From Henricia sp. BOLD:AAB3569 (taxonomy: Eukaryota > Echinodermata > Asteroidea > Spinulosida > Echinasteridae): 64,000 bases of DNA. The stretch is from the NCBI GenBank assembly GCA_037783545.1, contig JBBELK010000977.1:1-64000 (forward strand), written 5' to 3'. The position numbers were made by a program, and so were the translations under genes. Below, piece after piece: positions 11,401 to 31,800 of this stretch (positions are counted from its first letter, which is position 1; each line of letters opens with the position of its first letter). Below the pieces are notes generated by a model. The model had not been told where the DNA came from, searched no databases, and was given only the letters and a program-made list of their open reading frames with translations.

Positions 11401-14400
11401 CACACTACCAAACACGATGACGGATAGTAGTGATCGCCGGACGTGTCTGTAGACAGGCAGATGGATCATCTCCTGAATGGGATTGAAGTCAGGGTCGTTG
11501 AGGTTGCGAAGGAACCACAGAACTCCTGGTCGCAGAACCTGGGCCAACAAAAAGGAGAATGATGTGTTAAAATATGGTTGCAAACGAGAAATGTAAATTA
11601 TATTTCGACTGAAAGGTTGAGAAGCTGAGAGATGCAACATATTTTATAAGCCGGTAAGGCCACAAAAAAAAAAAATGAGTTTAGCATAAGTTCAAGTCTC
11701 CCAAATTGATGCATTGACACCGCTTTTTTCCGCTTTTTAAAAAAAATGTTGGTAAGTGGATCCCAAGCAATAAAGTCAAGTTGACATGAAGCCAACAGGC
11801 ATGTTTTTAATCGAAACACTCAACAACAACAACAAAAACCTTTGATGCGCAATGTTGAAAGTGACGCGCACGCTAACACTAAACATAGTTATTTTTTTTG
11901 GCCTAATGCATATGAGCACCTCTTGTGGCAAGGCCGATTGTAAAAGCCGCTGCCTTAAAGGCCCAGTGGATCATTTGCAATGACCCCAAAAAGTAATCGA
12001 CGAGTTTACAGGGGAAAAGTTCTGAAAGTAAAGATTGAATTAATAGCAACTATCCATTGAAAGATTTTCCCTCAAAATGATATAATTTTACCAGAGAATA
12101 ATCCGTAAAGGTGAAATTATTTAGATCGTTTGCAAACGATTTACTTATTTTTGGTTCGCATCTACGCGGTCCAAATTGCATGGGCGCTGTGTACTCCGTG
12201 TGCGTGTTCCAACGCGATGCATTTTTATGGATCGCGCGCACACGCAGTCACATATAGTACCCGATCAACTGAGAAAGAATATTTGAAACACACCGCCAAG
12301 ACCAGGAAAATGCATATGGATTTTCATGGTTTTTTTAAACGTGGTACATTTGACAAAACTGAAATTTATTCGGATGAGTTTGTTGATGTCTTATTTTTGA
12401 TTTATAATGGTTTTATTCGCAGAATCGCTAAAAAACAGATCATCTACAGGGCCTTTAAGTGCCTCCATGAGAACCTGCGCTAACTTCACGAAAGCCATAG
12501 CTTCAATATCTCCAAGACCCAGTCCAAAGTGTCCTCCTACCATATTGATATGCTGCCCTTTTCTTATTTATGGACACAATAGAAAAATTCATCAAGCCCA
12601 AGACCTGGAAAGAGAGATGGTGTGGCCTTCTTGTCTCAACGGCTTCCGTGAAATTCCTTTCCTATTAATATGAGCTACAAATGTTTGAAAAACAAATAAA
12701 CTGGAGCGAGAGACATGAGTCCCCAGTTTGGATTCAAGTGACAACATACAGTTGAAGTCCGAGGTTTACATACATGTACACCACTACCATCATCACCCAA
12801 GATGGTAAACAGGACTACCCGAACCATTGCAAGGTGTGCAAGCTATGTTTTAAGTACTGCAAGCACGTGAGGAATTCCATAAAATCACGACTTTAGTAAA
12901 GACTGTTACAAAAATGGTGACAACGCAAGTTGAAGCACACCAGTTTTAACACAGTTGTATGTAAACTTCTGACTACAACTGTACATGTATGTTATCCCCA
13001 CTAGGCTTTAAAGGAGCGTGACCAGAGTTTCTGGAAAATAGTTTTCGATGTAACTTACCAATATTATCAAGTAACTCCCATACACACCTCCCATGTCCCA
13101 AAAACCCGAAAACATTCGCAATTTTCAGTAAAAAATTGAACAAAACTATCGAGTATGCTTTCAGCGGATAAACGTTGATACTGGAAAATTAGTTTACAAA
13201 AAATCGGTGGATTTTCGACGATATCCTCGGAAATATGCGGCCTAGAAGCGCGGGAGTTTCAGTTTCGTAATCAGAAAAATATAACGGATGTTATGATATA
13301 AAAATCTTATGACCCATAAGGTACGTCCCGGGGAGTTATGGGTAAAAAAAAGTGATCTGGTCACACTCCTTTAAAATTAGGCTTTAATTTTAGGCAGAAT
13401 GACGTTTTACCTCTCTGAGTAGGAGAATGAATGACGCAAAGTAGAAGACATAGACCATGCCGACGAGCCAGTGAAGGAACATTGACGTGCCTGGCGCTGA
13501 CTGGAAGCTCTGTAGTCTGTCAGGAAGGCTCGTCTCAAACATGGACTGTTAAAAAAAAAGGTATGATTATATCATTTTTGAGCTAACAAGCCGAATTTTA
13601 GGAATTAAACATTGAAATCCATGGATAACAAGTTTTGTTTGGCCTATAAATACTGGGAGTACATGTTTTACTCTTTACAACTTCAGGGCATAGCAACCAT
13701 GCATTACTGGAGATCTAAAGCCGCGTTCACATTATCGCGGAAAAACCACGCTATTACACTGCGCTTACCACATTGCAATAGCGCTCAATTGCCGATCTTT
13801 CCAAAATAGAAAATTCCACCCCTGTAAGTTGGGGCTTCTCTGATACCTCATTGGCTGCGCGTTGGAAAGGTCAGCGCACCGCGGTCAAAGTTCAACAAAT
13901 TTGAACTTTGATCGCAGCTCAAAATTTTTTACGCGTCGTGATAGACCACACACAAGCAGAAAATCAGCTCCTGTACAAACCAATAACACAGGGTCGCAAA
14001 ATACAATATTTCCGCGATAGTGTGAACGCCCTTAATACCGAGCAAAAAAATTAAAATTCAGTCCAATCTAAACATATCGTGTTTCTATTGTGAAGTACAG
14101 AATCAATACTGTATTCATGGTAGGAGAAAATGGCATAAAGCAACCAGACAGTTGGGCGCTGGGCATTGGCCTGCACCACGTAGCAACAACAGTATAGTAT
14201 GTGGAATTTCTAAACTACACGTTTATTTTAAATTTAAGTATTTGGGATGCCGGCCTTAGTGTAAAGGTTGCACGTAAAAGGCTATTTTGGACCTTATCTT
14301 ATCTAATTTGAACAGTACTCGTTTCCACAAATCCCGCCTCCACCCCTGTACTTACCAATGAGCATATATCCCGCCACACACCAACGGCAGTACCCCAATC

Positions 14401-17400
14401 TCTGTTACAACCAGTAGGAACATCTTCAGTACAATGTGATTGTCCCCCAAGATGGTGTCATGCAAAGTCTCTATATCACTGATAACACTCGTTTCTGTAC
14501 TTACCAATGAGCATACCAGCCACACACCAACGGCAGGACTCCAATCTCTGTTACAACCAGTAGAAACACCTTCAGTACAATGTGATTGTCCCCCAAGATG
14601 GCGTCATGCAAAGTCTCTATATCACTGATAATACTCGTTTCTGTACTTACCAATGAGCATATATCCAGCCACCAGCCACACACCAACGGCAGTACCCCAA
14701 TCTCTGTTACAACCAGTAGGAACACCTTCAGTACAATGTGATTGTCCCCCAAGATGGCGTCATGCAAAGTCTCTATATCACTGATAACACTCATTTCTGT
14801 ACTCACCAATGAGCATATATCCAGCCACCAGCCACACACCAACGGCAGTACCCCAATCTCTGTTACAACCAGTAGGAACACCTTCAGTACAATGTGATTG
14901 TCCCCCAAGATGGCGTCATGCAAAGTCTCTATATCACCAGCCGCACACCAATGGCAGTACCCCAATCTCTGTTACAACCAGTAGGAACACCTTCAGTACA
15001 ATGTGATTGTCCCCCAAGATGGCGTCATGCAAAGTCTCTATATCACTGTTAATACTCGTTTCTGTACTTACCAATGAGCATATATCCAGCCACCAGCCAC
15101 ACACCAACGGCAGTACCCCAATCTCTGTTACAACCAGTAGGAACACCTTCAGTACAATGTGATTGTCCCCCAAGATGGCGTCATGCAAAGTCTCTATATC
15201 ACTGTTAATACTCGTTTCTGTACTTACCAATGAGCATATATCCAGCCACCAGCCACACACCAACGGCAGTACCCCAATCTCTGTTACAACCAGTAGGAAC
15301 ACCTTCAGTACAATGTGATTGTCCCCCAAGATGGCGTCATGCAAAGTCTCTATATCACTGTTAATACTCGTTTCTGTACTTACCAATGAGCATATATCCA
15401 GCCACCAGCCACACACCAACGGCAGTACCCCAATCTCTGTCACAACCAGTAGGAATACCTTCAGTACAATGTGATTGTCCCCCAAGATGGCGTCATGCAA
15501 AGTCTCTATATCACTGATAACACTCGTTTCTGTACTTACCAATGAGCATATATCCAGCCACCAGCCACACACCAATGGCAGTACCCCAATCTCTGTTACA
15601 ACCAGTAGGAACACCTTCAGTACAATGTGATTGTCCCCCAAGATGGCGTCATGCAAAGTCTCTATATCACTGATAACACTCATTTCTGTACTCACCAATG
15701 AGCATATATCCAGCCACCAGCCGCACACCAACGGCAGTACCCCAATCTCTGTTACAACCAGTAGGAACACCTTCAGTACAATGTGATTGTCCCCCAAGAT
15801 GGCGTCATGCAAAGTCTCTATATCACTGATAATACTCGTTTCTGTACTTACCAATGAGCATATATCCAGCCACCAGCCACACACCAAATGGCAGTACCCC
15901 AATCTGTTACAACCAGTAGGAACACCTTCAGTACAATGTGATTGTCCCCCAAGATGGCGTCTTGCAAAGTCTCTATATCACTGATAGCACTCGTTTCTGT
16001 ACTTACCAATGAGCATATATCCAGCCACCAGCCACACACCAAATGGCAGTACCCCAATCTGTTACAACCAGTAGGAACACCTTCAGTACAATGTGATTGT
16101 CCCCCAAGATGGCGTCATGCAAAGTCTCTATATCACTGATAATACTCGTTTCTGTACTTACCAATGAGCATATATCCAGCCACCAGCCACACACCAAATG
16201 GCAGTACCCCAATCTGTTACAACCAGTAGGAACACCTTCAGTACAATGTGATTGTCCCCCAAGATGGCGTCTTGCAAAGTCTCTATATCACTGATAGCAC
16301 TCGTTTCTGTACTTACCAATGAGCATATATCCAGCCACCAGCCACACACCAAATGGCAGTACCCCAATCTGTTACAACCAGTAGGAACACCTTCAGTACA
16401 ATGTGATTGTCCCCCAAGATGGCGTCATGCAAAGTCTCTATATCACTGTTAATACTCGTTTCTGTACTTACCAATGAGCATATATCCAGCCACCAGCCAC
16501 ACACCAAATGGCAGTACCCCAATCTCTGTTACAACCAGTAGGAACACCTTCAGTACAATGTGATTGTCCCCCAAGATGGCGTCTTGCAAAGTCTCTATAT
16601 CACTGATAGCACTCGTTTCTGTACTTACCAATGAGCATATATCCAGCCACCAGCCACACACCAATGGCAGGACTCCAATCTCTGTTACAACCAGTAGGAA
16701 CACCTTCAGTACAATGTAACACAGGCCCAGGATTCGCTTGGTGCGGTGCATCTTAAGCAAGCCGCTAAAAAACTATTACAAGAGAACAAGTTAAGGGAAA
16801 TATACCAACAAAATTGTCATGGAGAACTGTTATCTCGGTGAGAGATTGACAATGTAAGGTAAAAGCCAATCTGTTTATAAGTCAGCTCAGTGAGGTACCG
16901 TGGCCGAGTGGTTTGGGTCACTGACTCGCAATCACAGGTGAAAACTTGGGGTTGCGGGTTCGAAACTCGCCCTGGCTGGGGTACCTGTGCCCTTAAGCAA
17001 GGCACTTAATCACACATGCTTCATCCTTCGGAAGGAATGTAAAGCCGTTGGTCCAGTGTGTTAGGTAACGGTAACGCACTTTAAAGATCCCAGAGCAATC
17101 TTTCGTGAAGAGCAAGGGGAGGGATTCCCCAGGTGTTTCTGGCCGTTTCTAATTCATCATGGGTTTCCTCACGCTTGCCAGCGACAGTGCAATGGGCACT
17201 TTTGAAGAATCCTTGGTTTCAGTCCCAGAAAGAAATGATTGGCACTGTGTGGACATAGCAGCTTTTGCCAAAAAATGCAGTTGGCGTTTAGCGGTTTCTG
17301 CCAAAAAAAGTTTTCGGATAGCTTAAATGTGAGATTTAGCGGGTTTTGAAGCAGAAACTATTTGATCATCATATGCTAGGCACCGACGGCTTTCACTTGA

Positions 17401-20400
17401 TATTATCAAATCTTTTCATGGAAGTGGCGTTTAGCGGCTTTTGCGCCTGAAGCCCTCACATGTCTTCCACCTAAACATCGAGATACTTGAAACCGCAACC
17501 CTAAGCTTTCACTTGAGTGTTGCGAGCCAGTGACCCAAACCATTTGGCCACGGTACCCCACCCTAACGCCACCCCTACTCCTTTGACACTTCAAGTGTCA
17601 ATAAAAAGGATACATGAAAGAGTATAAGTGACGAGCAGAGAGTGACATATCCCGACATGGTTGTCAGTAGACCCTCAAATCGAGACATCTTGGCATACTC
17701 ATTCCATCCCATCACGAGCATTCCAAAACGGCCAATGTGGAATGGACAAAAAGCTGTCAAACAAAAAGAACAAAAATTAAACTTGTGAAATACTTTTTTT
17801 ACTTTAGTGAAATTCAAAGTGTGCAAGCTTTCAATACGTGTTGAAACTGATGGGGTTAGAAAGTGTTTTTAAAAACCGGCCGGGCCTATATCTTCCACTC
17901 ATAACCTTAGATTACACCTTCCTATTGGCTAAGAGCACGTCACATGGCCAGTCTTAAACGATGTGGGCCTTGCGCCCTAGTCAGTTTCAGCGCGTATGGA
18001 ACACGCACACAAAAACCGCACATGCCGTGTGCGTCACGTACAACACACATGCAAAGCGCGTAACGCATGCCTGCATGTGGCTCATAAGCAGGGGTAGAAA
18101 TTCCCTCAAAAAATTACTTGCGCCTTGCGCAAGTTGGCACTGGAATTAACTTGCGCTTACAAAAACTTACTTGCGTTAACTTAGATGACAAGTAAGAATC
18201 TGAATCCTTCTCTGGAACCTTAGTTACCGAGTCTGTTTTTGCGCCGGAAATTTCTTTCCGACCCAGCAGTGTCTAAGCCAGTGGTCTAAGCCGATGTTTC
18301 AGTATTTTCGTCACCCAACTTTCCACTCTGCCGTCCAAAAAAATAAAAAAGCGTTTTATCTTCTTCCCGTGATCGTTTCATCATGGAGCCTAGCCATGAA
18401 CAATTCTGCAGCGATGTGTGTTTACGTGTGAACTGTCAAACGATGCTTGTTTTCCACGTGCATTGCACTCGTATCCAATACATTGATTTCCAAGTGGGAG
18501 CTAATCGCAGGGAGCGAGGTTATGCACATGCATAGACTTGAGTAAAATCTGGAGTCGTCGGGAATCGGAATCGCGATACCGTCCTTTGGAGAAATCTTTT
18601 ACCATTATCTTGGCGATTTCAGGACGTACCTGGCGACTCTAAATGTTACAATTTGGCAGTGTTTTATATCAGGTTTTCGAGATATGTTTCTAAATTACCT
18701 GCCAACGTTTTGTTTTGAAAAACGGGAATGGCGATTGGATTCCGAAAGTATTTAAATCGCCGAGGTTGAGTTCGGGCGATCATGGATTCTCGCGTGCGAT
18801 CCTGTATGCTCCGAGTGCAGTGTTCTCAGATCGTGCTCCCACCGTTCGGGCGCGAGAAGATTGTTCGCGTATTCAGACCGCCCGAACTCGACCCGAAGCT
18901 CACATGCGCACAGTGTCTAGTTTCCAACACATGTGTGGTGAGCAAACTTTATCGATGCATCGTGTCTGCACGTACCATACTACATTGTATGTGCCAACGA
19001 TCACACTGACAGCATGACAGCATGAATACATAAAACACGGACCGGCGTAGATGACCGACACAACAAGGAAGACAAAGAAAGGAACTTCAAGTAAACTCGT
19101 TTTTATTCAATCAAACATGTGTCAAATCATGGTCAAATCAAGTAAATTTTAATCAGCAAAGTAATGTTGAGGTGCAATAAAGTTAAAACCGTACTTTATG
19201 CCAACTTGCGCAAAGTGCAAGCTTGTGCTTTGGGTTACTTGCGTTCGTTAATTTTTACTTGCGTTGCGCAATCACTTCAATGGTAATTTCGAGCCCTGAT
19301 AAGGCGCGTGGCTCGTAATGCGCGCGGCTCGTAATGCGCGCATGCTGCTTGGGTCATTATCATCCATAAGGTTATCAAACGGTCTTAAACATACAGTTTA
19401 AGACCAACAAAATACGCTTTTATTCACTACCTTAAGACCAACCACATGACATGTTCTTTGCCAATAGAAATGCGTAAACTCTCTTAGGTAATAGTATTTA
19501 TCCGGTTAGTAAGTGCTACGTCACATGCGCACGCACTGCAATTAGTTTGTACACTAGTTCCGGTTCCAACCGGAACCTGAAGTAATGTACAAACTAAAGG
19601 CAGCGCGTGCGAGTATGACGCAGTCACTTACAAGCCGGATTAACATTATTTATCAATGACTCACCGAAGACAAATATGAATAGAGCATTGAGCGAGATGA
19701 CCCAGAGGACGTGTTCCAGGAAGATGAGTGACCCATCCAGCCCCAGCATTCTCTCCCATGTCAGCTCCTCAGCGGCACGGTCCCACTCCAGGGCATTCCA
19801 GTTGATGTCATCTGTAGATGGAATATGTACAGTCAAAGGAAGGGAATATGATGGTCGAGTATGAGCAGTTTACACCATGTAACTAGGAACTCTTTATGCC
19901 ATACGTTTTCAGCCTTTATAATGGTGTCACCATTTTAGGCCTGTGCATTTTCAAAAAATTGACGATTCGAAATTTGATTAATTTTTTGGATGGAATATTT
20001 AATATTCGATTTGTAAACTTTTTCAAAAATTTCCGCCCATTTTTTGCAGTGTTATCCGAACACTTTATTAATCAAAACCTTTTGACGTAAGATTTTGGGT
20101 CTGAACTGCCAGAGCATACCTATCCAAGGATCTGATAGAACGAGCGCCAAAGGTTACTTATAGCTGAATAATATTATTTTTACCTTGTCCAGCATTTTCT
20201 GCTGGCCCAGCTGCATTATTCCCAGCATTCTCTGCTGCAACAGGCCCCACCCCTGCCCCTGGCCCCACCCCTGCTGCATTGGGATTGGCTACCTGGGCTG
20301 CTGGTTGCCTCTGATTGGCTGGTGCCTGTTGATTGGCGGCTGGCTGGGCTGCTGCTACTGCTGCTACATTCTGGCAAATTCAAACAAGGTAGGGAATAGA

Positions 20401-23196
20401 CTATGTAAGTTGACCTCGAGAACGTACGAGACCGCGCGAGACCACTGTTTTTTTACAGCACAAGACCCTATCTCTTCAACGCACGTCGCTAGCGCAATTC
20501 TTGGATTATTTTGTTTGCGCAGGTTTTTGTAAACTCAGACGGCCCAAAACGCGTATCTCTAAATAAAATCTTGCATTCCAATTGATGAAGTGGGGTATAT
20601 AATCAAAAATAAGCAATCGAAATGTAAAAATTCACGATCTTTTCTGAGCCGTCAAGTCAATATTTGAAGATCGTAAACTACATGCAGCAAAAGATATGCA
20701 TCACGCACAGCAGCCGACGTACAGTGTACATACAGACCTCGCTAGCGATAGGCGAAACGCATACCAAAAGTAGAGCTTGCAGACCTTTTTTTAGAGTGCC
20801 CAAGTTCAAAGCATTCATTTTCACATGAATCCACACTTGGGTCATCCATTCCAAATTGGATGAAGAATATGCTAGCAGGGAAATTTATTCAGGTCACGAA
20901 ATTTTAATAATTTTTTTTTCGTTTTTAGAGATAATTATGCATGTATTATATATTGTAAAAAAACATTTTAGTTACCCGAATCACTTTCGGGTCGGTTGTA
21001 TACTTAAGATTGGACACAAACATTTATATACAAAAAACAAAATCTCGCCCGTGTTATAGGAATAGGTGTTTTAGTCATGTTGTGCCCGGAAGCTCAGATT
21101 TGACCTTTGCCGCGAGACTTACATAGTCTATTCAGTGGTTGAACTGGTTTCTTTACAAATTAGTATAAGACCCGGGTGTGAATAAAATGATATGGACTTT
21201 AGAAGATTTAGGAATGTTAGGGTTACAGAAGCAGGCCCAGATCACATTTTTTAGCACCTCCCACCGCCCTCCTATTTTACCCATGGATGTTGAGGTTTTA
21301 ATAATATATAATTTGTCATATTTTTTTCATTTCCATTCTGAAATTTCGTGCCCCCAATCCACATAGATCGAAGGATATCATTAAAAAAAATCGCTGATCG
21401 CTTTTTGCTTCCAAATCCAAATTGGTGATTGCAAATTTCCCATTTTCTCCCTATAGATAGTATTTTGGGGATGCATTTTATATGAATATTGGGTTAGAAC
21501 GAAATCCAATTTCTGGAAAAAATTTGAACAAGTTCCTTTAACAAATTTAATTGCTACAAATGTGGACAGATGTCCATGAGTTTGAGAAATCTGGATGCAG
21601 TGAAAAGCAACTTGGCTCCACCGGGATTAGAACCGCACACCTTCTGCTTAATGTGCAGACGCCCTACCAATGCATAGTTCCGATTTTGCCCAGTTAACCC
21701 CACCCCCTTGGATATTGTTGCTATGGCTCACACGCTATCGTCAAAATGGAGACACACAACGCACAAAGCAATGGGACTTTCAACGGAAAGCACAGATTCA
21801 ATGGAGAAAACTCAAAGGTATTCATGTTTCAGGGTCGACAGTTATCTTAGAACACACCGAGTAAAGGGCCATTAATACAGGGATGTCATATCATGAAATA
21901 CGTGCTTTCGTACCTTTGAACAACAAAACGACCGGCCTTGAAACCACAAATTCACCCGGATCATCGCATACAACACTGTACAAATTGTATGGGGCAGAAT
22001 CGCGTGATGTTGTTGAGACAGTGCACTTTGACCTATGTGGGTGATATCTGCTAGCTCTGTTGTGATTGGTCGGCGGGTTCGGTTGATTGACAGGTCAGAA
22101 CTATGAATTGAGCTATGAAGCCAATTGGTGGTCTCGAATCACGGTAGTGCAGTTGTTCCTCACTGATTGGGATTGGCTATCACGTGAGCTTAGCAAGCCC
22201 TACAGAGGGATAAACCCTTCAATGCGATAACCACCCCTCCCATCCAAATTGGAGATTGCAAATTTCCTGTTTTCTCCCCATGGATAGTATTTTGGGGATG
22301 CATTTTATATGTTTATTGGTCAGCAGAGTTTAGAACTAAGCTTGGGCAATGTAACATTAGTGGTGAACCCTTAGCCTGTTGAAATATTGTTTGTACAATA
22401 TTCCCGTGCCGTTCAATATATTCTGTGACGCGTAACATTGCACAGTGCATGCGGGGGACTCCAGTCACCGACAGTGGCAGGAAAAAAATTTGTTTGGCGA
22501 CTCTGGAGTCGCCGACAGCAGGCTAAGAGTTAATCATATAGGGAATCTTCTTCTGTGAAAAATAGTCGTTATTTGATAAAAATCAGTCAAGAGAATCAAA
22601 GGTTATGTCATTTTTGGTACAGCAAAGTCACACCCTAGTTCAACTGGTTACCCAGTTTAGGATTAGTCAATCACTCCTAGTTGAGGGCTGACCTTGCTGC
22701 ACTGAAAATGACATAACTTTTGATTTGTTTGACTATTAATTTGATGCAATAAAGAATATTTTATATGTAAGAAGATTCCCCATCAGGATCTGGGAAAACA
22801 GACATTTTTAGGGGGACACCCTGCACAGGGGCCACCTGTTTATTCTGGCCACTTTTTGTCCATCCCTTAGATGGCCACTATTGAGCTCGTGCCAATGACG
22901 TCATTTTGGGAGTAAAACAATGCCGCGTCGTTGTGGAAGCAATGTGCGTGCGCATTGTATGTGTCCATAGCGCGCGTAACGCGCTATGCTGAGGCTCCCA
23001 TTGGTGAACTAAACCGTGTTACGCCCACCAGAGACACACACAATGCGCACGCACATTGCTTCCACAATGACTCAGCATTATTTGACTCCCAAAATGGCAT
23101 ATTCGCACGTGTTCGAAAGGGGTCAATACACAAGTGTGACTGTACCTGGTTATTAGCAGGTGCTGCAGCAGGTTGCTGCTGTTGCTGTGGTACTGG

Positions 23197-23231
<35 letters not shown>

Positions 23232-26200
23232 GTGGTGCTGGTGCTGCTTCTGCTGCTGCTGCTGCTGGTACTACAGGCGCAGCGGCCCCACCATCAGCAA
23301 CCCCGTTCCGAGCCCTCTGTGCATCATCTTCCAACCACTCGGGTCCTCCGCCGTGCGTGACCTGCTCCCGGAGCCAGACTAAGCTGACAAATGCGCACAG
23401 CGTGGAGCCGACGACCAGCAAGCCTTGTAGGATGTCAGTGGCTACGCTCTCACTGGGAACAATAAATGACATTTGTCATTGATAGGTCTCTACAAATATT
23501 TTTACAGTTTCAGAAAGAACAACTTCTAAGCTTTAAAATAATGCTTGTTTGAAGTTCATATGACATATTGGAGTTACGATACACTGAATCTGGCCATGTA
23601 TGAATATGGGTCTTTCCACAGTAAAGGGGCATTTTGGCAACACAGACAATATTTTCGAGGAAATACCTTTGTCTGGTCTCAAAATAAAAGAAATAAGTTT
23701 AAGTTGTTATGAAGAGATAACTTAGGTCCAAAAAGGGTTACAAATAGTGTGACAACATGCCTTTCTAAAAACCTTGTGTACAAATTTCCAATATACGTTA
23801 ATAGGGAGGTTTCGCACCGTCACGGATACCGATACGGATACGTCATGACTCTATGCGCTTCTCGTGACGCGTAACCGTAGTACACACGTTTTCATACGCG
23901 TGAATAACGGGTATCGGCCTCCATATGCGTAGCATAAAAACGGATACCGGTTATGCAGATTTTTCGCTATTTCCGTGATGGATTATTAAGTTGTGTGCAT
24001 TTTGTTTCTTTTTTATGTATATTCTGTGAATACAGATCGAATTTAATGAGTCGGGCCCACGTGAAAGTGAGGAAAATCTGCTGAAAACAAAGCCAAGCGA
24101 AGAGCAGATTTAGCAGATAAATGTACACGTACATTCACACAGTGCGAACCCCAGTTCAGTGTGTACATCAATGTGAACGGTTACTGTTATCATATCCGTA
24201 TTCGTAACCGTATCCGTCAACTTGCGAAACCTCCCTAATAACCGGGACGGACACTTGTGTTACATTTTAGGCCGTCCCAGTTACGAGCGTATATTGGAAA
24301 TTTGTACACAGGGTTATCAGAAATGCATGTTGTCACACTATTTGTAACCCTTTTTGGGCCTAAGTTATCTCTTCAGAACAACTGAAACTTATTTCTTTTA
24401 TTTTGAGACCCGACAAATGTATTTGGTGTTGCCAAAATGCCCCCTTTACCGCGACAAGACTCATATACATTTGTACAAGGTCTGTTTTTTAGTAAAAGGA
24501 CCCAAATTAAGCTTCTTTAAAATGTTAGGATATAAAAATATCATAGCAACCACCATGTTCTCAATTATAAGCTATAATCACCACATTTTACACAAACAAT
24601 GCTCAGACCTTATTTTAACATCGCAACAAACTTCAAAAAAATTGACAAAATAAAGTTTGCTGACTTCAAGGGTGGTAGATGGTGACATATATAGCAGTGA
24701 TTTTATTAATATCTGTCTAATGGAGGTGGGGGAGGGGAGGGGAGGGTAGGGGGGATGGGAGAGGGGGGGGGGGGGGGGGTTTTGTATAGGTAACATGCGA
24801 TCACGGTAACGCCCCCGTACCTTCGCCGATCGGATAGATATATGCATGGTAAGTGAACGATAATCATGATAATGACACCAGTGGCTAGCGAATCACGTTC
24901 GGAGAATTTGAACCTAACTTTGAAATGACATGGCTGTACTTTCATAGTGTTTTAGAGGGGAAAATTGATTTTTTTATATATTTTTTTGTTGGGGGGGGGG
25001 TGGTTTGGTCGCTAACGGTACCTGTGATGATTTTGTCTGGGCGGCACCCCCGGACAAAACCAGCAGTGGAGAACACTGATGTATATATGGCTTTGTCAAT
25101 CACATTTGCTTGTACTCACAGTGAAAACATGTCAAATGGGAGCGTCAACAGGGGCACCAAGGATGCTTGGAACAGACAACGATAGATGCGACCTGGTAGA
25201 TAGGTACAAAGTAAATTACTTGTTAACATTTCACTTAATGCCATACATGTATTTTGCTCATGATTCCAACCAGCTATTCAATACCAGCTAGCTCAGTAGT
25301 CCAGTGGTTGAGACGTCCGCCTGGTATACAGGAGGTCATGGGTTCTAGTCCCACCCGAGCACGCTATGAAGTTTTTCTCATAGTGTCTTGGGGAAACACC
25401 GAGTATACAGTGCTAATGAAGTTACATCGGGTAAGAACAAAACAAAACCCTAATTAAAGTTGAACTGTTCGTGTTTAGGTGAAAGGATGTGATCAATCAG
25501 TTAGTTCTAGTGGTACAATTGCTTTCAAACAGTGTGTCAACGTGCATTTTTATTATGACCCAAAATTTTCTACAATAGGTGCCTCGTTTTGAGGGTTCTT
25601 ACGATCTATTTCACAAATTTCTTTGATCGATTTCTTGGTTTACTTACATGCAGTGACTGGAACCACACCCAGCCAAGCAAACGTGACCAGGGTGTAGTGC
25701 AGCCAGCACTTGATGGCTGTTCCCACGCTCTTGGCTAACCCCCGGACAATGTCCATCACGGGCAGGCGCTTTGGCATGTCCGGGGAATAAACTGGGGATG
25801 AAAAAAACAAATTTAATTGGCAACTATTTCCTTGCATTTGTGCAATGACAATACAACCTAAACTGTAATGTAAAATATATAAAATGTATTTATGGATACC
25901 GTACGTTTCTGACACTTAGAAAGTCCTAGTCTGACGTGCATCCAGACCAGACACATTGTGAGTGTGTGGTATAACAAAATAATGTACAGCAGTAACAAAA
26001 GCGTATGCAATTGTAAACGTAGAAAATAAACTTAGTTTTAACACCGTATGAAGAAATTTTTTGTGGGAACCTTACAAAACAAACAAAATACACTTTTGAG
26101 AAATACTTGGTTTCAGTACCAGAAAAAATTAATAACAAAAACATATTTGAAGTCTAAATTTTCTGAAGCCGAGGGATCTTTGACTGAAAGTTCTTCTTAG

Positions 26201-28601
26201 TGCCAGTTTGTGGAATTGATAGCCATGATACCAATGCAATTTAACCGTGAACAGTAAACACTACCCCAAACACTGGTATTTCAGAAAAATTGGAGTGCAC
26301 GCTAAATCATTTTCAGATAATTACAAAGTAAAAATCTAACTATGGTACAGTTTTGCGTTATATTTCTGATGGAATATATTGTGATGGTGAAGGTTGATGA
26401 ATGTGGCTTACTTGGTGTGAATGAAAACCGGTGCATACATAGTTCACAGTATTCCTTCTTGCTGTGTTTCAACCACTGCACCAAACTGTCAAAAAGGAAC
26501 AAATCAAACTTGTGAATTAATGCAATACAGAAAAGCATTTAAAAATAAGAAGTGACATTCCTCCCTATGAAACGACCAAACATAGGACGAGAGAAAACCA
26601 TATGGGCCTCATCATAAATCATATGGGCCTCAAGTCTCAACACTCGTGGGGTGACAGAAGTTTTTCTGCAGCCGCACCACACATCTGGAACTCTCTACCG
26701 CTTAATCTTAGATCTTGTCTCTGTACAACAAAATTCAAATCACTTCTAAAAATGATCTCATGTCTCAGGTTTTTAAGGACTAATTTGGTTGTTCCTCTCA
26801 TTTTTGATTGTTTCTTTCATGTTTAATATTACTTTGTTTGTTTTTTTAGTGTCTCTGCGCCTTGAACACCCAGCAGGGTGGATATGTGCGCATTACAAAA
26901 ACTATGGATGCTAGGATAGGGCGACAATTTATGTGTAAAAAAGGTATATTAGGGCGACACGCTCAATAGGGCGACATTTTGGTGTCGCCCTAATTATTAT
27001 TTTTTTAAAATCATTTTTTAAGGTCAAAAACCATTTTTTTTTAAATCGAGAACCATTTTTATTAGGTCTAGAACCGTCTCTCTTAGGTCTGTAACCATCT
27101 TTGGAAGCTTCAGGTAGAAAAATAAGGTGTCATTTTGAGTGATTCTTGCCGAAATTTCGGTGGTCCCCGGGGAGAGTCTTCCCGAAATGTCGCCCTATTG
27201 CTGCATCCAGAGTTCTTACAAATCTTATTATTATTATTATTATTATCATGACTTTAACCCAAGACCTCTGACTCACCGGGCAGAAGCTCTACTAACTGAG
27301 CTACAAGGTATACTCCGTCAGGTTTTCCCTACCAATTTTTCTCTAGGTGTTGCAATGTTGATTAGTCATATAAGGATTCCGTTCTAACTTAATCATGTAA
27401 AATACCTCCCCAAAGTACTATCCATGGAAAGAAAACGGGAAATTTGCAATATCCAATTTGGATGTGGAAGCAAAAAGGTTGGTCTAATAACTGCCCTGCT
27501 TTACGTAACCGGATAAATTAGTTTGCAAAACATTGGTGTTTTTTTTAAAGATATCCTTTAAAATATATGGATTGAAAACATGAAATTTGAGAATGGTAAT
27601 GAGATACATATGACACATGATATAGTATCAAAATCTCAACACCCATGGGAAAAATGGAAGGGGGGAGGGGGTGTTGGGGGTGCAGCAGGTCTGTCAAAAA
27701 AATGTGTATTTCTCACCAGTCCTGATGGATGAATTTAATGCTGCCCGTGCAGATACAAGGATAGAAAAGCGGCCTATCGGAGCTGCCTTCCGAACGGCAC
27801 ACTCGACATATGTCACCTGGGTAGAACAAACAATCAAAAGCTTTTTATTTTTTAGTTTATACAAGGTTCCTACATGTAGCATTTCATGAAAACAAAATTG
27901 TCTGCAAATACCCAGAATAATCGCGGCACGAGAGGGATTTAAAAAAAAGGTAAATAAAGACAGGAAACCGTTGCGTTCTTCGTTTCAAAGTACTTCGGTT
28001 TCCAGAGGGCGCTTTTCTTTTAATTCCCGATGGGCTACCCCCTCGAAATCAAAACATTCACAGCCGTCTCTCGTCTCCGCGTCTCAAGAAACCCTCTTGC
28101 CCGGAATAATCGCGGCACGAGAGGGATTCCCGACTGGCTATCCTCCTCGAAATCAAAAACATTCACAGCCGTCTCCCGTCTCCGCGTTCCCAGAAACGAA
28201 GTCACGGCATAGTGGTGCTTTCGACCACCAGAGGGCGCTCATCTCCCGTCTCGCCGTCTCTGCTAGAACTTAGAAGTTTGATCACATCGTCTCCAATCAA
28301 CTTTGAAAAGGTGCTGTCGCGTGGGCCCTGTATTCTATAGTTACTCCGTCATGATTGTGTACAAAACATATGAAATTGGCTGAAAATTTGGTAGGCCTAG
28401 GCCTACCATATTTCATGTATTTTCAGTGTTTATTTAATTAAAAAATCCTAAATTTCGTTAACTCTTAAATGTGGGTTTTCTTATCAAATTTGTATATGTT
28501 TTGTACACGAAATCTGAAGCCATGGCCAGTTATGAAATTCATTCTTTGAATGTCAAATTTAACCCAGAACGTCCAAATTTACCTTCGCTACTTTCCTCCA
28601 T
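2448..28601 (-). CDS. MARCHF6: E3 ubiquitin ligase MARCHF6 (TEB4/Doa10), complete, 20 coding exons
   Basis: This is the ER-membrane RING-CH ligase of the ERAD-C branch, which ubiquitinates misfolded membrane proteins and sterol-pathway enzymes (family knowledge). Coding exons in 5'-to-3' order: 28583-28601, 27717-27816, 26412-26485, 25648-25791, 25120-25192, 23146-23452, 20184-20370, 19665-19811, 17614-17753, 16629-16772, 13411-13545, 11318-11538, 10522-10659, 8515-9175, 7809-8063, 6911-7045, 6210-6299, 4628-4760, 4108-4243, 2448-2532. All junctions are GT-AG and in phase, giving 1107 aa against about 910 in human. The C4HC3 RING-CH lies at about residues 7-62 (ICRVC, PCICT, CELC). Many transmembrane segments follow, including the TEB4 region around residues 350-560. 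The protein ends with the family C-terminal element [11 protein letters not shown]. The extra length is in an Ala/Gln/Asn linker (exons 6-7) and an acidic linker (exon 14). The acceptor of exon 10 was chosen because it restores the human spacing; that junction is the least certain. Confidence 0.95.
2838..2935 (-). repeat. SINE-A, second copy, truncated
   Basis: On the minus strand it reads leader AAAACTGGGTTCATAGGGGA and then GCTCGGTTGGTAGGGCATCT, the tRNA-like A-box half. The B-box half is missing. Confidence 0.6.
4312..4556 (+). repeat. tRNA-derived SINE-C, copy 1, in MARCHF6 intron 18
   Basis: The head has a B box (GGGGTTCAATTCC) and the body GGGCGTGTATGTGGATTAGG. The tail is TAATAAGG, ACCGTATGGAATAGAGGGCC and an A/T repeat. 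A second copy lies at 44855-45065. The same region after 4005 has a T-arm-like GGATTGGAACCCGAGACC of another repeat. Confidence 0.65.
5490..5582. mobile_element. Small palindrome in MARCHF6 intron 17
   Basis: Arms of about 42 bp (ATGAGCAACTAACAATGAAA and its complement ending TAGTTGTTCATAG) meet at AACAATGGTT-like centre. It is a foldback MITE or part of one. Confidence 0.65.
5649..6089. mobile_element. Inverted-repeat element E2, copy 1
   Basis: Bounded by TGCATAGTTCCGA and GAAACTATGCA. A copy in the opposite orientation lies at 21671-22107 and shares CAGTTAACCCC, AGCACAGATTCA / TGAATCTGTGCT and TGACAGGTC blocks. No gene is visible in it. Confidence 0.65.
7495..7738. mobile_element. T1 MITE, right part
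   Basis: Carries ACTAATTTATCCAACTATAT, TTTCCACATCCAAACTGG and GAACAAGCTTCTTTAA, the shared right half of T1. It ends about 70 bp before exon 15 of MARCHF6. Confidence 0.6.
8515..9175 (-). CDS. MARCHF6: MARCHF6 exon 14: enlarged acidic cytosolic linker
   Basis: This 661-base exon starts with the conserved DMRSYLLGD and ends with [12 protein letters not shown] and [11 protein letters not shown], both matched in vertebrate MARCHF6. In vertebrates about 30 residues lie between these blocks; here there are roughly 170. The insert is rich in Asp, Glu and Pro, has a direct duplication ([20 protein letters not shown]), a run EEEEEDEEE and a repeated [11 protein letters not shown]. It is predicted to be disordered and to face the cytosol (inference from family topology). 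Confidence 0.9.
10795..11215. mobile_element. DNA transposon with 28-bp inverted ends (E5)
   Basis: The left end GGGTAATTCCCAAAATTAGG is matched by CCTAATTTTGGGAATTACCC at the right. The 421-bp body has no coding frame, so it is non-autonomous. Confidence 0.8.
12749..12981. mobile_element. Tc1/mariner MITE with Sleeping Beauty-like ends
   Basis: The left end CAGTTGAAGTCCGAGGTTTA and the right end (minus strand) CAGTTGTAGTCAGAAGTTTA are 25-bp inverted repeats with TA on both outer sides. The family ends of Sleeping Beauty-type Tc1 elements begin CAGTTGAAGTCGGAAGTTTA. At 233 bp it has no transposase. Confidence 0.8.
13008..13374. mobile_element. T2-type MITE (family T2), copy 1
   Basis: The ends TTAAAGGAGCGTGACCAGA and TCTGGTCACACTCCTTTAA differ at one base. 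A copy at 45623-45988 is nearly identical across the full 366 bp (for example GATATCCTCGGAAATATGCG), so movement is recent. It lies 36 bp before MARCHF6 exon 11. Confidence 0.88.
14347..16720 (-). repeat. Exon-derived tandem array in MARCHF6: 16 units of 155-157 bp
   Basis: Each unit, read on the minus strand, holds about 87 bp copied from the 3' part of exon 10 ([14 protein letters not shown] through WWLDICSL), the 5' splice site TTG|GTAAGTAC, and about 69 bp of the following intron. I count 16 units, 15 with the splice donor; the unit near 14941 has lost it. Spacings between successive donors are mostly 156 bp, with a block of 155 at 15845-16465 and one of 157. The rightmost unit is the real exon 10 (16629-16772), which alone has the upstream [10 protein letters not shown] coding and a 3' splice site. 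Confidence 0.95.
16893..17130 (+). repeat. tRNA-derived SINE-D, copy 1
   Basis: Head GTGGCCGAGTGGTTTGGGTC with B box GGGTTCGAAACTC, then a shared body (GCCCTTAAGCAAGGCACTTA, CATCCTTCGGAAGG, GCCGTTGGTCCAGTGTGTT). Related copies: 40731-41055 (plus) and 17400-17566 (minus, mostly the head). Confidence 0.75.
17400..17566 (-). repeat. SINE-D, inverted partial copy
   Basis: On the minus strand it reads GTGGCCAAATGGTTTGGGTC and continues with ATCTCGATGTTTAGGTGGAA. With the plus copy at 16893 it forms an inverted pair beside MARCHF6 exons 9 and 10. Confidence 0.6.
18088..19302. mobile_element. Possible 1.2 kb inverted-repeat element
   Basis: Both flanks are rich in ACTTGCGCAAG-type motifs (GTAGAAATTCCCTC at the left, GGTAATTTCGAGCCCTG at the right; CGCAAGTTGGCA against TGCCAACTTGCGC). 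The plus frame at 18715-19017 has no recognisable domain. It lies in intron 8 of MARCHF6. Confidence 0.35.
19497..19650. mobile_element. Foldback MITE
   Basis: ATCCGGTTAGTAAGTGCTAC at the left pairs with CAGTCACTTACAAGCCGGAT at the right, and the centre TAGTTCCGGTTCCAACCGGA is itself palindromic. It ends a few bases before MARCHF6 exon 8. Confidence 0.65.
21238..21541. mobile_element. T1 MITE copy
   Basis: Carries CAGATCACATTTTTTAGCAC, CATTCTGAAATTTCG, AATTGGTGATTGCAAATTTC and ends GAACAAGTTCCTTTAA. A further fragment of the same family is at about 22225-22320. The tRNA-like sequence at 21605-21670 (minus) follows. Confidence 0.65.
21671..22107. mobile_element. Element E2, copy 2 (inverted relative to copy 1)
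   Basis: Shares with 5649-6089 the end TGCATAGTTCCGA and, in reverse order, ATTGGTCGGCGGGTT and CAGAACTATGAA. Same non-coding structure. Confidence 0.65.
22540..22781. mobile_element. Inverted-repeat element in MARCHF6 intron 6
   Basis: Left AGGGAATCTTCTTC pairs with right GAAGATTCCCC, and the inner GGTTATGTCATTTTTGGTAC pairs with GAAAATGACATAAC. Confidence 0.6.
22911..23095. mobile_element. Palindromic element next to MARCHF6 exon 6
   Basis: Arms such as TTGTGGAAGCAATGTGCGTG and CACGCACATTGCTTCCACAA match over about 60 bp, with TTTTGGGAGT / ACTCCCAAAA at the ends. It ends about 50 bp from the splice donor of exon 6. Confidence 0.75.
23146..23452 (-). CDS. MARCHF6: MARCHF6 exon 6: membrane segment, then poly-Ala/poly-Gln linker
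   Basis: The exon starts with a conserved segment ([14 protein letters not shown]) and continues into a low-complexity linker of alanine runs, PQQQQQP and APANNQ. In the DNA this is a CAG/GCA/GCT triplet tract at about 23160-23270, so the linker is probably length-variable. Exon 7 (20184-20370) continues it with Ala, Asn and Gln, and exon 8 resumes the conserved [20 protein letters not shown] block. The long plus-strand frame opposite this exon is only its antisense shadow. Confidence 0.9.
23617..24465. mobile_element. Long palindromic element E3, interrupted by another MITE
   Basis: The left arm (AGTAAAGGGGCATTTTGGCA, AGATAACTTAGG, GTGTGACAACATGCC) is matched by the right arm (GGCCTAAGTTATCTCTTCAG, TTGCCAAAATGCCCCC). 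An uninterrupted copy is at 54758-55176 and one arm alone at 59459-59645. The insertion 23802-24237 splits it. Confidence 0.75.
23802..24237. mobile_element. MITE with TAGGGAGGTTTCGC ends, nested in E3
   Basis: Left end TAGGGAGGTTTCGC pairs with right end GCGAAACCTCCCTA. The interior repeats CGGATACCGATACGGATACG-like motifs in both directions. A relative with the same ends is at 49705-49930. Confidence 0.75.
24719..24781 (+). repeat. G-rich tract, possible quadruplex, MARCHF6 intron 5
   Basis: Repeated runs of four or more G end in an 18-base G run. The MARCHF6 transcript is C-rich here. Nothing suggests a gene. Confidence 0.7.
25284..25440 (+). repeat. tRNA-derived SINE-B, copy 1
   Basis: A box (TAGCTCAGTAGTCCAGTGG) and B box (GGGTTCTAGTCCC), then GAGCACGCTATGAAGTTTTT and CTCATAGTG. 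The second copy is at 37715-37880. Confidence 0.7.
26412..27816 (-). CDS. MARCHF6: MARCHF6 exons 2-3: RING-CH domain
   Basis: Exon 2 (27717-27816) and exon 3 (26412-26485) together encode the zinc-binding RING-CH. It has the pairs CxxC and CxC, then His and Cys of IHQDC (the Cys codon is split across the intron), then CELC. The spacing fits the C4HC3 MARCH type rather than a classical RING. The 19-base first exon encodes only MEESSE plus one base, so the fold depends on correct splicing of a very small start exon. Confidence 0.95.
26635..26915 (+). mobile_element. 3' end fragment of an L2/CR1-like LINE
   Basis: The frame at 26602-26826 contains [20 protein letters not shown] and KFKSLLKM, the typical C-terminal tail of L2/CR1-type reverse transcriptase proteins. 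It is followed by GCGCCTTGAACACCCAGCAG and GTGCGCATTACAAAAACTA, a common 3' UTR motif of such LINEs. It is a 5'-truncated remnant. Confidence 0.7.
26918..27201. mobile_element. Foldback element with AGGGCGACA repeats
   Basis: GATAGGGCGACAATTT at the left pairs with AAATGTCGCCCTATT at the right; the motif GGGCGACA also occurs internally three times, once inverted. Confidence 0.5.
27250..27350 (-). repeat. SINE-A-related tRNA-derived repeat
   Basis: On the minus strand: GTAGCTCAGTTAGTAGAGCT and GAGTCAGAGGTCTTGGG, with the leader AACCTGACGGAGTATACC also seen at 1-60. Confidence 0.55.
27360..27655. mobile_element. T1 MITE copy, reversed
   Basis: Reads GAAAACGGGAAATTTGCAAT, GTAACCGGATAAATTAGTTT and TATCAAAATCTCAACACCCA, the complement of the other T1 copies. 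It ends 60 bp before MARCHF6 exon 2. Confidence 0.6.
27912..28200. repeat. Local tandem duplication in MARCHF6 intron 1
   Basis: AATAATCGCGGCACGAGAGG occurs near 27914 and 28103, and CATTCACAGCCGTCTC near 28051 and 28154. The repeated unit is about 100 bp with some sequence lost or added between copies. Confidence 0.65.
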
Positions 28602-28878: not shown

Positions 28879-31800
28879 ATGACAGAGATCGCAGTCGAAG
28901 ACTTTGATCCTTTGGCGTTGGAGATAACTGATAGATTAAATAACGAATCAAAAAGTAAATCAGGAACGTGGGAACACGAAGATTTAGCCCAGGTAGTAGA
29001 ACTGCATTAAGTTGTAAACAAAACCGACACCGGGACTCCGACCCAAACTTTTTAGGGGCGGGGCCGCTAAGTTAAAGGAGCGCGCGTGACCAGGGTCCAA
29101 TTTCATAAAGCCCATTTAGAAACATTCCTGAATAAAAAATTCTTAACTCATGCTTTGAAAGATAGGGAAAATTATATTACATGTAATATTGTTCCTAAAT
29201 CCACTTTAATTTATGAAATAGGACCCTGATCACATTTTTGAGCAACCCATTTTTCCCATATGGAAGTTGAGATTTTGATATCATGTCAATTGTCATATTT
29301 TTCTCATTACCGTTCTGAAATTTCGCATTCTCAATCCGCATGATGATAAACTGTATTCTGCTGCTGCAGTAGTAGAAACATCCTGCAGCGGCAATCAGTC
29401 CTTCTTCAGTTGAAGCCACTGCTTCTTATCGGTTGCGAGCATCCTGAGCTCCCTCAGTTTCTTTCGAGATTTTAGGGTTCCAAGTCCTGACGTTTTGAGG
29501 TCGGCCCTGAGAACACCAAGGAGGTTCATGCAATGGCGGCCTTTACGTGCTCGGTACTGACTGGATCCAATCACTGCAAAATTCAATGCCGTCTGAGCTG
29601 GTACAGACTCTGGCATGCGCAATATGTGACCAAACATTGACCATCTTTGTTTGGCTACTCTGGTAGACAGTGGAACTGTGTTACACATTTCATACAGAGC
29701 ATCGTTAGAGATCAAACTATTTGGCCATCGGTGTCCCGTGATGATCCGTAGGTGTCTACGGTGGCAGGCGTCCAGCTTGTCCATGACTGCTTTTGGAGCG
29801 GCCCAGCTGTTGCAGTTGTACAGCATTATGGAGACACACGTTGCATCGTAGAGTCGTAGCTTTTTTGACAGTGGGATTTTTGACTTTCTGATCCAGATTT
29901 TCCAAAAGGACTGGAAGGCTATGTTGCCAATAACACGACGTGCAGATACATCTGACGAACTACAAAGTAGGGAGCCAAGAATTTTGCTTTTTCTCCACTG
30001 TTCGTCCCCTCTCACAGGATCGTCCTCGTCGTCTCCTGCACGGTTGTCTGACAGATAGACATGTGTGAATTCCGTTTTGGTCTCATTCATGAACAGGTTC
30101 ACATCTTTCAATTTGGCTGCAGCGATAGGGAGTACGTTGTCCAGTGTTTCTTTTTCCTCGTCTATGAAGTCTACGTCATCTGCATATTCCATCTCTAGTG
30201 GCATTCCAAGTGATGAGATAGGAGGGTTAGGTCTAGTAGAAGCCTCTCTAACGGATGACAAGGCAGCAGCGAGGTAACATGTGAAGAGCACTGGTGAAAG
30301 ACTGTCTCCCTGTGGCGAGCCGATAGATGTGACGAATTCAGCCGAGTAGGTCTTCATGACACGGACCTTCAGCTTGGTATTTGCTAGTACTAGCCTCACA
30401 AGTCGTAATTCGTCGTCATTGCAGCCTGCCTGATGGAGAACATCTAGTATTCTTGAGCGCTTTATGGTGTCGAAAGCCTTGGACATATCTATGCCCATCT
30501 TGAAGAAATCCCAGTGTTTTGACATCACTACTGAAACGAGCATACGTTGTGCCCAGACTATGTCAGCACAGCTCCTACCTCTCTTAAAACCGCTTTGATA
30601 TGGGCCAGTAAAGATGTCAATCTTCTCCCGGATACGATTTAGCGTTATTGTGGACAGGATTTTACGGATACTGTTCAGTAGGACGATTGGTCGCAAGTTG
30701 GCAGGTGGGCCAGGAGCCTTCTTGGGTTTTGGCAATGCTATTAGTGTGCCTTGTCCGGTAGATTCAATTGAAACGTGGTGATGGAATGCTGAGTTAAAGA
30801 TGGAAGCAATAGGTGGTGACACAACATCGTTGGCATATTTGAACAATTCGTTTGGGATTCCATCAGGTCCAGGTGAACGGCAGTTTCTCAGGGATGTTAT
30901 AGCTTTGCCAACCTCCCCGTTTGTGATGGGGGCCGTTAGTGGCCTTGGATCACCAGTAAAAGGCTCTAAACCGTCGTCGTCTGGGTCTGTAAATTGTTTG
31001 CTGAACCATTCGCGAATGGTATCGGCCTTGCCTTGGTCAGTTCCCATGAATTGTCCATCAGCATTATGTACTGTGAGTGTTGGTGTCGGACCAGTTACCT
31101 TAAGAGCACGTGCAGCTCGGAACATTTTGCGACAGTCGTCTGTAGATGTGATGTCATCTGCCAGGGCATCTGCTCGTTCAACTGCGAGTTCTCGCAGGCG
31201 CTTCTTGATCTTGCGTAGTAGAACATTTCGTTCCTTGCGTATGTTCGAACGATCTTCACTAACGCTGCTTTGGTAGATGCGGAGTCTCATAGCCTTTTGT
31301 TGCAGTGACAGGTCTCTCACCAATTGGTCTTCAGTGTGGCGTCTGCCACGGCAATTTGTCAAGACTCCAACAGTTTCAGTAGCTGATGTTTCCATTTGCT
31401 TCAGTACATTTGACAGGGCATCATTATTGTCACGGCCAGTAAGGATACCTTCCAGGTTGACCTGCAGACTATGTCTGTAGGCATTTTGGGTTGAGGCATC
31501 ACTTGCAAGCCTGTAAAGGTCATACCTGACTGGACCACGTCCTTTCGGGCGATATTTATGTGTCAGGCATATGCGATTCAGTTGCAGCCGTGTAACTACC
31601 AGTTTATGGTCGGAGTTGAGATCGCATCCTCCATAAGAACGAGAATCGTGTAGCATGGGTTTAGTTGTCTGTTTGCAAAGCACAAAGTCTATTTGGTTGA
31701 AGACCGGTATGGTTGCTTTGGAGTTGGGCCGTCTTTTGGGGGCAGCGATGTGTCCGGTCCAAGTTGTACGGTGTCGACATGGGTGTTTGAAGGCCGTGTT

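Follow-up and report, generated by a model that had tools for sequence, protein, structure and literature searches.

Tandem repeats that lie at the border between an exon and an intron have been described in more than one setting. In IFI6, a minisatellite supplies splice donors, and two of its downstream units have been reported to be used (PMC4526556, PMC3618361). Variable internal tandem repeats have also been reported at exon-intron boundaries of human segmental-duplication genes, where they can alter splicing and create novel introns; transcript evidence was analyzed for these recently duplicated genes, and 27 intron modifications remained after manual inspection (PMC2812944). A TTTTA/TTTCA expansion is known in human MARCHF6 in familial adult myoclonic epilepsy 3 (FAME3) (PMC6820781), and intronic minisatellites of other kinds have been reported (PMC12783039, PMC4039745). 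Here, we describe a minisatellite that begins within exon 10 of a MARCHF6/Doa10-type ubiquitin ligase gene of the sea star Henricia sp. BOLD:AAB3569 and carries 15 copies of one 5′ splice site. The gene lies on the minus strand of a stretch of 64,000 nucleotides (nt), referred to below as the window (contig JBBELK010000977.1 of assembly GCA_037783545.1, positions 1 to 64,000). In kind, the array goes with the minisatellite of IFI6 and the boundary repeats of human genes, and it differs from IFI6 in its unit size and coding content. It is likely to be a neutral, homogenised minisatellite that is tolerated with the first donor in use, a by-product of tandem duplication and unequal exchange.

The features that define the array are as follows; a slash marks a splice site.

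14346..16717, minus strand: minisatellite array, about 15 units of about 156 base pairs (bp) and one partial unit inside a 265-nt interval, from Tandem Repeats Finder (TRF) and unit alignment
16621..16631, minus strand: donor 1, TTG/GTAAGTAC, first intron base 16628, U1 pairing -10.5 kcal/mol
14355..16471, minus strand: donors 2 to 15, first intron bases 16471, 16316, 16161, 16006, 15851, 15695, 15539, 15383, 15227, 15071, 14806, 14650, 14504 and 14355
17614..17753, minus strand: exon 9, 140 nt, from the spliced reading frame
16629..16772, minus strand: exon 10, 144 nt, its final 88 nt forming the first exon copy in the array
13411..13545, minus strand: exon 11, 135 nt, acceptor TTTTTTTTTAACAG/TCCATG

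TRF recovers the array as two rows of period 156, one at 14346-14937 (3.9 copies, 93% match) and one at 14935-16717 (11.4 copies, 97% match), and a row of 109 bp spans the partial unit (14826-15046). The array continues from exon 10 into intron 10 and fills about 2.27 kb of its 3083 nt. A complete unit consists of about 88 nt of the end of exon 10 followed by about 68 nt of intron, the intron part beginning with the donor. All 15 donors are intact, as a reading made from the letters of the window alone (the sequence-only reading) had proposed: 13 of them read TTG/GTAAGT, donors 7 and 12 read TTG/GTGAGT, and the partial unit has no donor. The 14 donor-to-donor intervals measure 157 nt (once), 155 nt (four times), 156 nt (six times), 265 nt, 146 nt and 149 nt, the 265-nt interval holding one complete and one partial unit. 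Thus, the same reading was right that 156-bp units exist and that 155-bp units would shift the frame, and it overstated the former, which account for only six of the 14 intervals. Its description of the donors as lying in identical context is largely correct and slightly too strong, as units 14 and 15 are shortened by deletions of 10 and 7 nt near the donor. Other copies of the unit were sought in the window, with chance-level matches only. The intron part of the unit was also compared with the 5′ part of exon 10, from which it might have diverged as a copy; this candidate was rejected, as 761 of 2000 shuffles reached its local score. The intron stretch after the last donor (13900-14355) resembles 48227-48417, with 71% identity over 191 bp, and is a dispersed repeat.

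The minus strand of the window holds most of the ligase gene, and further exons are located below 13411.

13411..27816, minus strand: exons 2 to 11 (10 exons) of the MARCHF6/Doa10-type gene, from the spliced reading frame

When exons 2 to 11 are joined, using donor 1 for exon 10, they give one open frame of 483 amino acids that runs from the RING-CH domain to ...FILLLRE; the numbering assumes one unseen first exon. Pfam finds RINGv at residues 3-49 of this frame (4.8e-16), an N-terminal RING-CH domain. Four PDB sequences match it by phmmer, the best being yeast Doa10 (8pd0), whose whole-sequence E value of 4.7e-15 comes almost wholly from the RING region. Residues 404-482, encoded by exons 10 and 11, align colinearly with Doa10 residues 616-697, a match that is weak when taken alone (13.6 bits, i-Evalue 0.24), and the frame of exon 10 searched alone against PDB gave no match. 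A Pfam scan of the separate, unspliced pieces found no ligase domain; the RING and Doa10 matches come from the spliced frame. The name MARCHF6 is a probable assignment from these matches, the order of the exons and a presumed likeness to the human protein. With the TRF rows and the spliced frame, it bears out the proposal of a MARCHF6 gene with an exon-intron minisatellite. A literature search for echinoderm MARCH6 found nothing, and the passages of the MARCH6 structure paper that bear on the protein do not place exon 10 (PMC10776854). Within the same gene, exon 6 (23146-23452) has alanine- and glutamine-rich runs that derive from a CAG/GCA repeat at 23174-23267.

To follow the reading frame, exon 10 was lengthened to each of the 15 donors in turn and then joined to exon 11. 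On this haplotype, to which all frame results below refer, only one of the 15 forms, that of donor 1, stays open through exon 11. Exon 10 measures 144 nt with donor 1 and from 301 to 2417 nt with donors 2-15. Donor 2 adds 157 nt and shifts the frame, so that translation would end no more than 11 nt into exon 11. All later forms end within the array, at a single site.

16449..16451, minus strand: in-frame TAA reached by exon 10 extended to donors 3 to 15 (13 of 13), from the frame test

This TAA is in frame because one T has been inserted in the exon part of unit 2; the exon parts of units 3-6 have the same inserted T together with a 2-nt deletion. Further into the array, the 156-bp intervals between donors 6 and 11 produce an open frame of 347 amino acids (15977-14934), which is cut off from the frame of exon 10 because 157- and 155-bp intervals adjoin exon 10. 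The sequence-only reading had expected that use of a distal donor, or retention of the array, would add multiples of 52 residues. Neither route does so here: each of the 14 later donors leads to a stop, by way of a frameshift or directly, so that in-frame extension of exon 10 is rejected, and the 347-amino-acid frame is not connected to the protein. A Pfam match of that frame to MbeB_N was taken as a chance match repeated by the array. Conversely, on a haplotype without units 2-6, the 156-bp in-frame units would directly adjoin exon 10 and could be read through.

These results agree with the simpler view already put forward for the locus, that the minisatellite is tolerated and the first donor prevails: only donor 1 gives an open frame, and it is probably the one used. 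The array probably arose from a tandem duplication that included the 3′ portion of exon 10, the donor and the first stretch of the intron, the duplicated segment then being amplified to about 15 units by unequal exchange. During splicing, exon 10 would be defined by U1 at donor 1 together with the U12-type acceptor that lies 144 nt upstream of it, and the 14 remaining donors would be excised with intron 10. Any other donor would make an exon of the larger sizes given above and an unproductive mRNA.

A preference for the first of several equal donors is consistent with work on donor choice. Where competing donors are almost equally strong and the introns on both sides are long, splicing is reported to favor the upstream donor. 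In five minigenes whose two 5′ splice sites were strong and identical, with 365-nt introns on either side, the upstream site was the only one chosen; when the donors were weakened, larger exons were skipped (PMC9225289). Both introns that flank exon 10 are longer than 250 nt (841 nt for intron 9, 3083 nt for intron 10). The minigenes resemble this locus in having equal donors behind one acceptor and long flanking introns, and differ from it in that they are designed, with two donors and a strong U2-type acceptor, whereas here 15 natural donors follow a U12-type acceptor (PMC9225289). Donor 1 is thus expected, by analogy, to take nearly all splicing. Folding of the one two-unit stretch of array RNA that was analyzed revealed nothing out of the ordinary (z +1.46, with an equal or better fold in 90 of 100 shuffles).

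The differences among the copies suggest that they exchange sequence with one another. Units 1-6 follow a 310-bp dimer pattern, and GGA GTC is found only in the coding copy and unit 14, while the 14 other copies compared, including the partial unit, have GGG GTA. Because of these dimers and of the variants shared by the exon parts of units 1 and 14, we suggest that the array also exchanges sequence with the coding copy (perhaps with different alleles of it), which is an explanation offered rather than a test. Exchange of this kind would preserve the donors and leave the exon parts coding-like without any function of their own. Relative to the coding copy, the exon parts show nine substitution events, of which seven are synonymous and two nonsynonymous, both of the latter in the last, shortened unit 15; the change at position 138 of unit 14 is part of the 10-nt deletion and was not counted. 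Random placement of the same kinds of change gives 3.2 synonymous events (P 0.0099 for at least seven), and in the intron part, when translated in that frame, one event is synonymous and six are nonsynonymous (Fisher test against the exon part, 0.041), both tests being post hoc and based on small numbers. Frame-breaking insertions or deletions are common in the exon parts, being present in those of units 2-6, 14 and 15.

Several observations weigh against a neutral array in which donor 1 is used. The synonymous skew is not expected from plain neutrality. The density of events is equal in the two parts of the unit (9/88 in the exon part, 7/68 in the intron part), and purging of nonsynonymous changes should lower it in the exon part. 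As for donor choice, the upstream rule is not universal, because the same study also reports downstream preferences: it refers to older in vitro experiments in which, of two competing donors, the downstream one prevailed, its human events show a downstream preference of about 60% overall, and before matching for strength the downstream donor has the majority in every class of introns, including the long-long class, so that the upstream preference appears only with near-equal strength (PMC9225289). The reported use of downstream donor units in IFI6 (PMC4526556) and the report of novel introns at human exon-intron tandem repeats (PMC2812944) point the same way. Finally, the array contains potential acceptors.

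14399..16525, minus strand: weak potential acceptors GTAACAG/AG/ATTGG in the exon part of units 2 to 15, pyrimidine fraction up to 0.60

Over the 20 nt that precede each of the 132 array AGs, the pyrimidine fraction never exceeds 0.60 (the best is GTGTTCCTACTGGTTGTAAC/AG), compared with 0.65-0.80 at 11 real acceptors of the ligase gene. The best AGs of the array fall only a little short of the weakest real acceptors. Joined to the donor of the same unit, the array acceptors define 24 tested pseudo-exons of 41-54 nt, and eight of these would be in frame and open: the second AG of units 7-13 (51 nt, 17 additional residues) and the first AG of unit 2 (54 nt, 18 additional residues). The odds that a small in-frame pseudo-exon is placed between donor 1 and exon 11 from such an acceptor appear low.

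The alternative that survives best is that the array acts as a dosage switch, in which some transcripts use donors 2-15 and run into a premature stop, so that loss grows with the number of units and less ligase is made. We regard it as unlikely. The 50-nt decay rule can be applied to the stops of the extended exon 10, and for 14 of the 14 extra donors the premature stop lies more than 50 nt before the next junction (distances by hand). All of these donors also pair with U1 as strongly as donor 1 does, at -10.5 or -10.6 kcal/mol for the whole set of 15 (modified bases of U1 ignored), and the downstream donors of IFI6 offer a reported precedent. This strength is not special, as 20 of the 3838 other minus-strand GT sites in the window pair at least as strongly, and the donors are no more conserved than the rest of the unit: 16 events over 156 positions predict 0.9 events in the nine donor positions, where one is seen, so that no donor-specific constraint is visible. 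Moreover, judging by the minigenes with identical donors, the first donor should be the one used (PMC9225289), and nothing in the present analysis supports an unproductive-splicing switch.

Two further alternatives depend on the intron upstream of exon 10, which looks U12-type.

16773..17613, minus strand: intron 9, 841 nt, with U12-type signals: donor CAT/GTATCCTTTTT, branch-like TTCCCTTAAC and acceptor TAATAG ending at 16773

The donor CAT/GTATCCTTT at 17613 is the end of exon 9 that keeps the frame, and it fits the U12-type donor consensus RTATCCTTT. The branch-like element at 16799-16790, about 18 nt before the AG, resembles the U12 branch consensus TTCCTTAAC. The acceptor is TAATAG/TTTTTTAGC, its last intron base being 16773, and the junction of exons 9 and 10 is in phase 0 and keeps the protein frame. 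In 19 kb of the transcribed strand, the U12 donor pattern occurs once against 0.24 expected in shuffles, and the branch pattern occurs in one place against 0.20 expected; looser patterns also match elsewhere in the window, the donor one at three further places on both strands. U1 pairing at the donor of intron 9 is -1.3, the weakest of the ten donors scored. With these signals, exon 10 would sit between a minor-spliceosome acceptor and a U1 donor, and contacts across the exon between a U12-type intron and a U1 donor have been shown in vitro, according to a review (PMC8329584). Among the literature matches listed, none has both a minor intron and MARCHF6; the sole match for U12-type and MARCH6 is unrelated by its title.

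A combined reading, which we consider quite improbable, would have the uncut donors boost the definition of exon 10 beside a slow U12-type intron, with the number of units determining the share of ligase mRNA that is completed and the share that goes to intron retention or to unproductive donors; the in-frame units could be read through on haplotypes without units 2-6, and in-frame pseudo-exons could add 17-18 residues on this one. We give slightly less credit still to the idea that the array is a platform that gathers the U1 small nuclear ribonucleoprotein, and that it thereby aids recognition of a slow U12-type intron 9 or guards intron 10 from early polyadenylation. The signals of intron 9 stand at frame-exact positions, and of the 10 donors scored in the ligase gene, donor 1 pairs most strongly with U1. 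Yet donor 1 by itself, at 144 nt, is suitably placed, the sole AATAAA/ATTAAA of intron 10 is at 14227, after the array, and nothing shows a benefit from more U1 sites.

It is very hard to credit that the array serves to extend the protein, with distal donors, retention or array pseudo-exons adding membrane-segment residues. The frame of the unit is open and hydrophobic (best 19-residue mean 2.42), six intervals measure exactly 156 bp, the changes in the exon parts are mostly synonymous, and eight of the 24 pseudo-exons keep the frame. These features are set against the stops and frameshifts of all 14 later-donor forms and the weakness of the pseudo-exon acceptors. In addition, residue changes are unrestrained in the intron part of the unit, at six nonsynonymous events to one synonymous, and pieces added within a Doa10 scaffold would be expected to harm its topology. 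An array or unit number inflated by the assembler is just as hard to credit: a single assembly lies behind the array, and the exact number of units could still be wrong, but the window is free of N, and a simple assembler duplication would not invent the private and mosaic variants of the array, its insertions and deletions and its partial unit.

Several other features are found in the window. A second large minisatellite, diverged and with units of about 21-24 bp (GCTGCTGTGGTTAACACT-like), occupies 55381-57086, and the longest open frame in that region (55301-57200) has 177 codons. Upstream of the ligase gene, at 29395-32418, is a LINE-type (long interspersed nuclear element) element with a single open frame of 1007 amino acids, in which Pfam finds reverse transcriptase (1.3e-23) and endonuclease (3e-9) domains. 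The plus strand at 32774-40244 has WD40-like pieces; the frame tested, 33761-34003, matches WD40 at 1.1e-9, and the others were judged by eye. A tRNA-like gene at 46-118 is the sole Rfam match in the window at the gathering threshold.

The IFI6 minisatellite and the array of the sea star gene both lie at an exon-intron border, with units that have consensus donors. The units of IFI6, at 12 nt, are very short, whereas those described here are about 156 bp long with 88 nt of conserved coding exon; and where two downstream units of IFI6 are reported to be used, lengthening exon 10 of the ligase gene to one of its 14 extra donors would be unproductive on this haplotype. The FAME3 repeat, in intron 1 of MARCHF6, is likewise an unstable intronic tandem repeat in the same gene, but it occupies another intron and is a pentanucleotide without exon or splice-site content, and there is no sign of a common origin. 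The human boundary repeats share the position at exon-intron borders and the potential to alter splicing, and they comprise 27 intron modifications in recently duplicated genes with transcript evidence (PMC2812944), compared with one array in one gene copy, seen as DNA, in this case. Among the literature matches listed, which are a minority of all matches, none is an array of 15 donors with a half-coding unit of 156 bp.

The locus provides a natural test of donor choice, in which fifteen equal donors follow one acceptor and any use of a later donor would be visible because its product is stopped. It also shows how a minisatellite can border on a conserved coding exon, which perhaps exchanges sequence with its own non-coding copies. 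If it is true that the array influences the neighbouring U12-type intron, repeat number would be linked to minor splicing.

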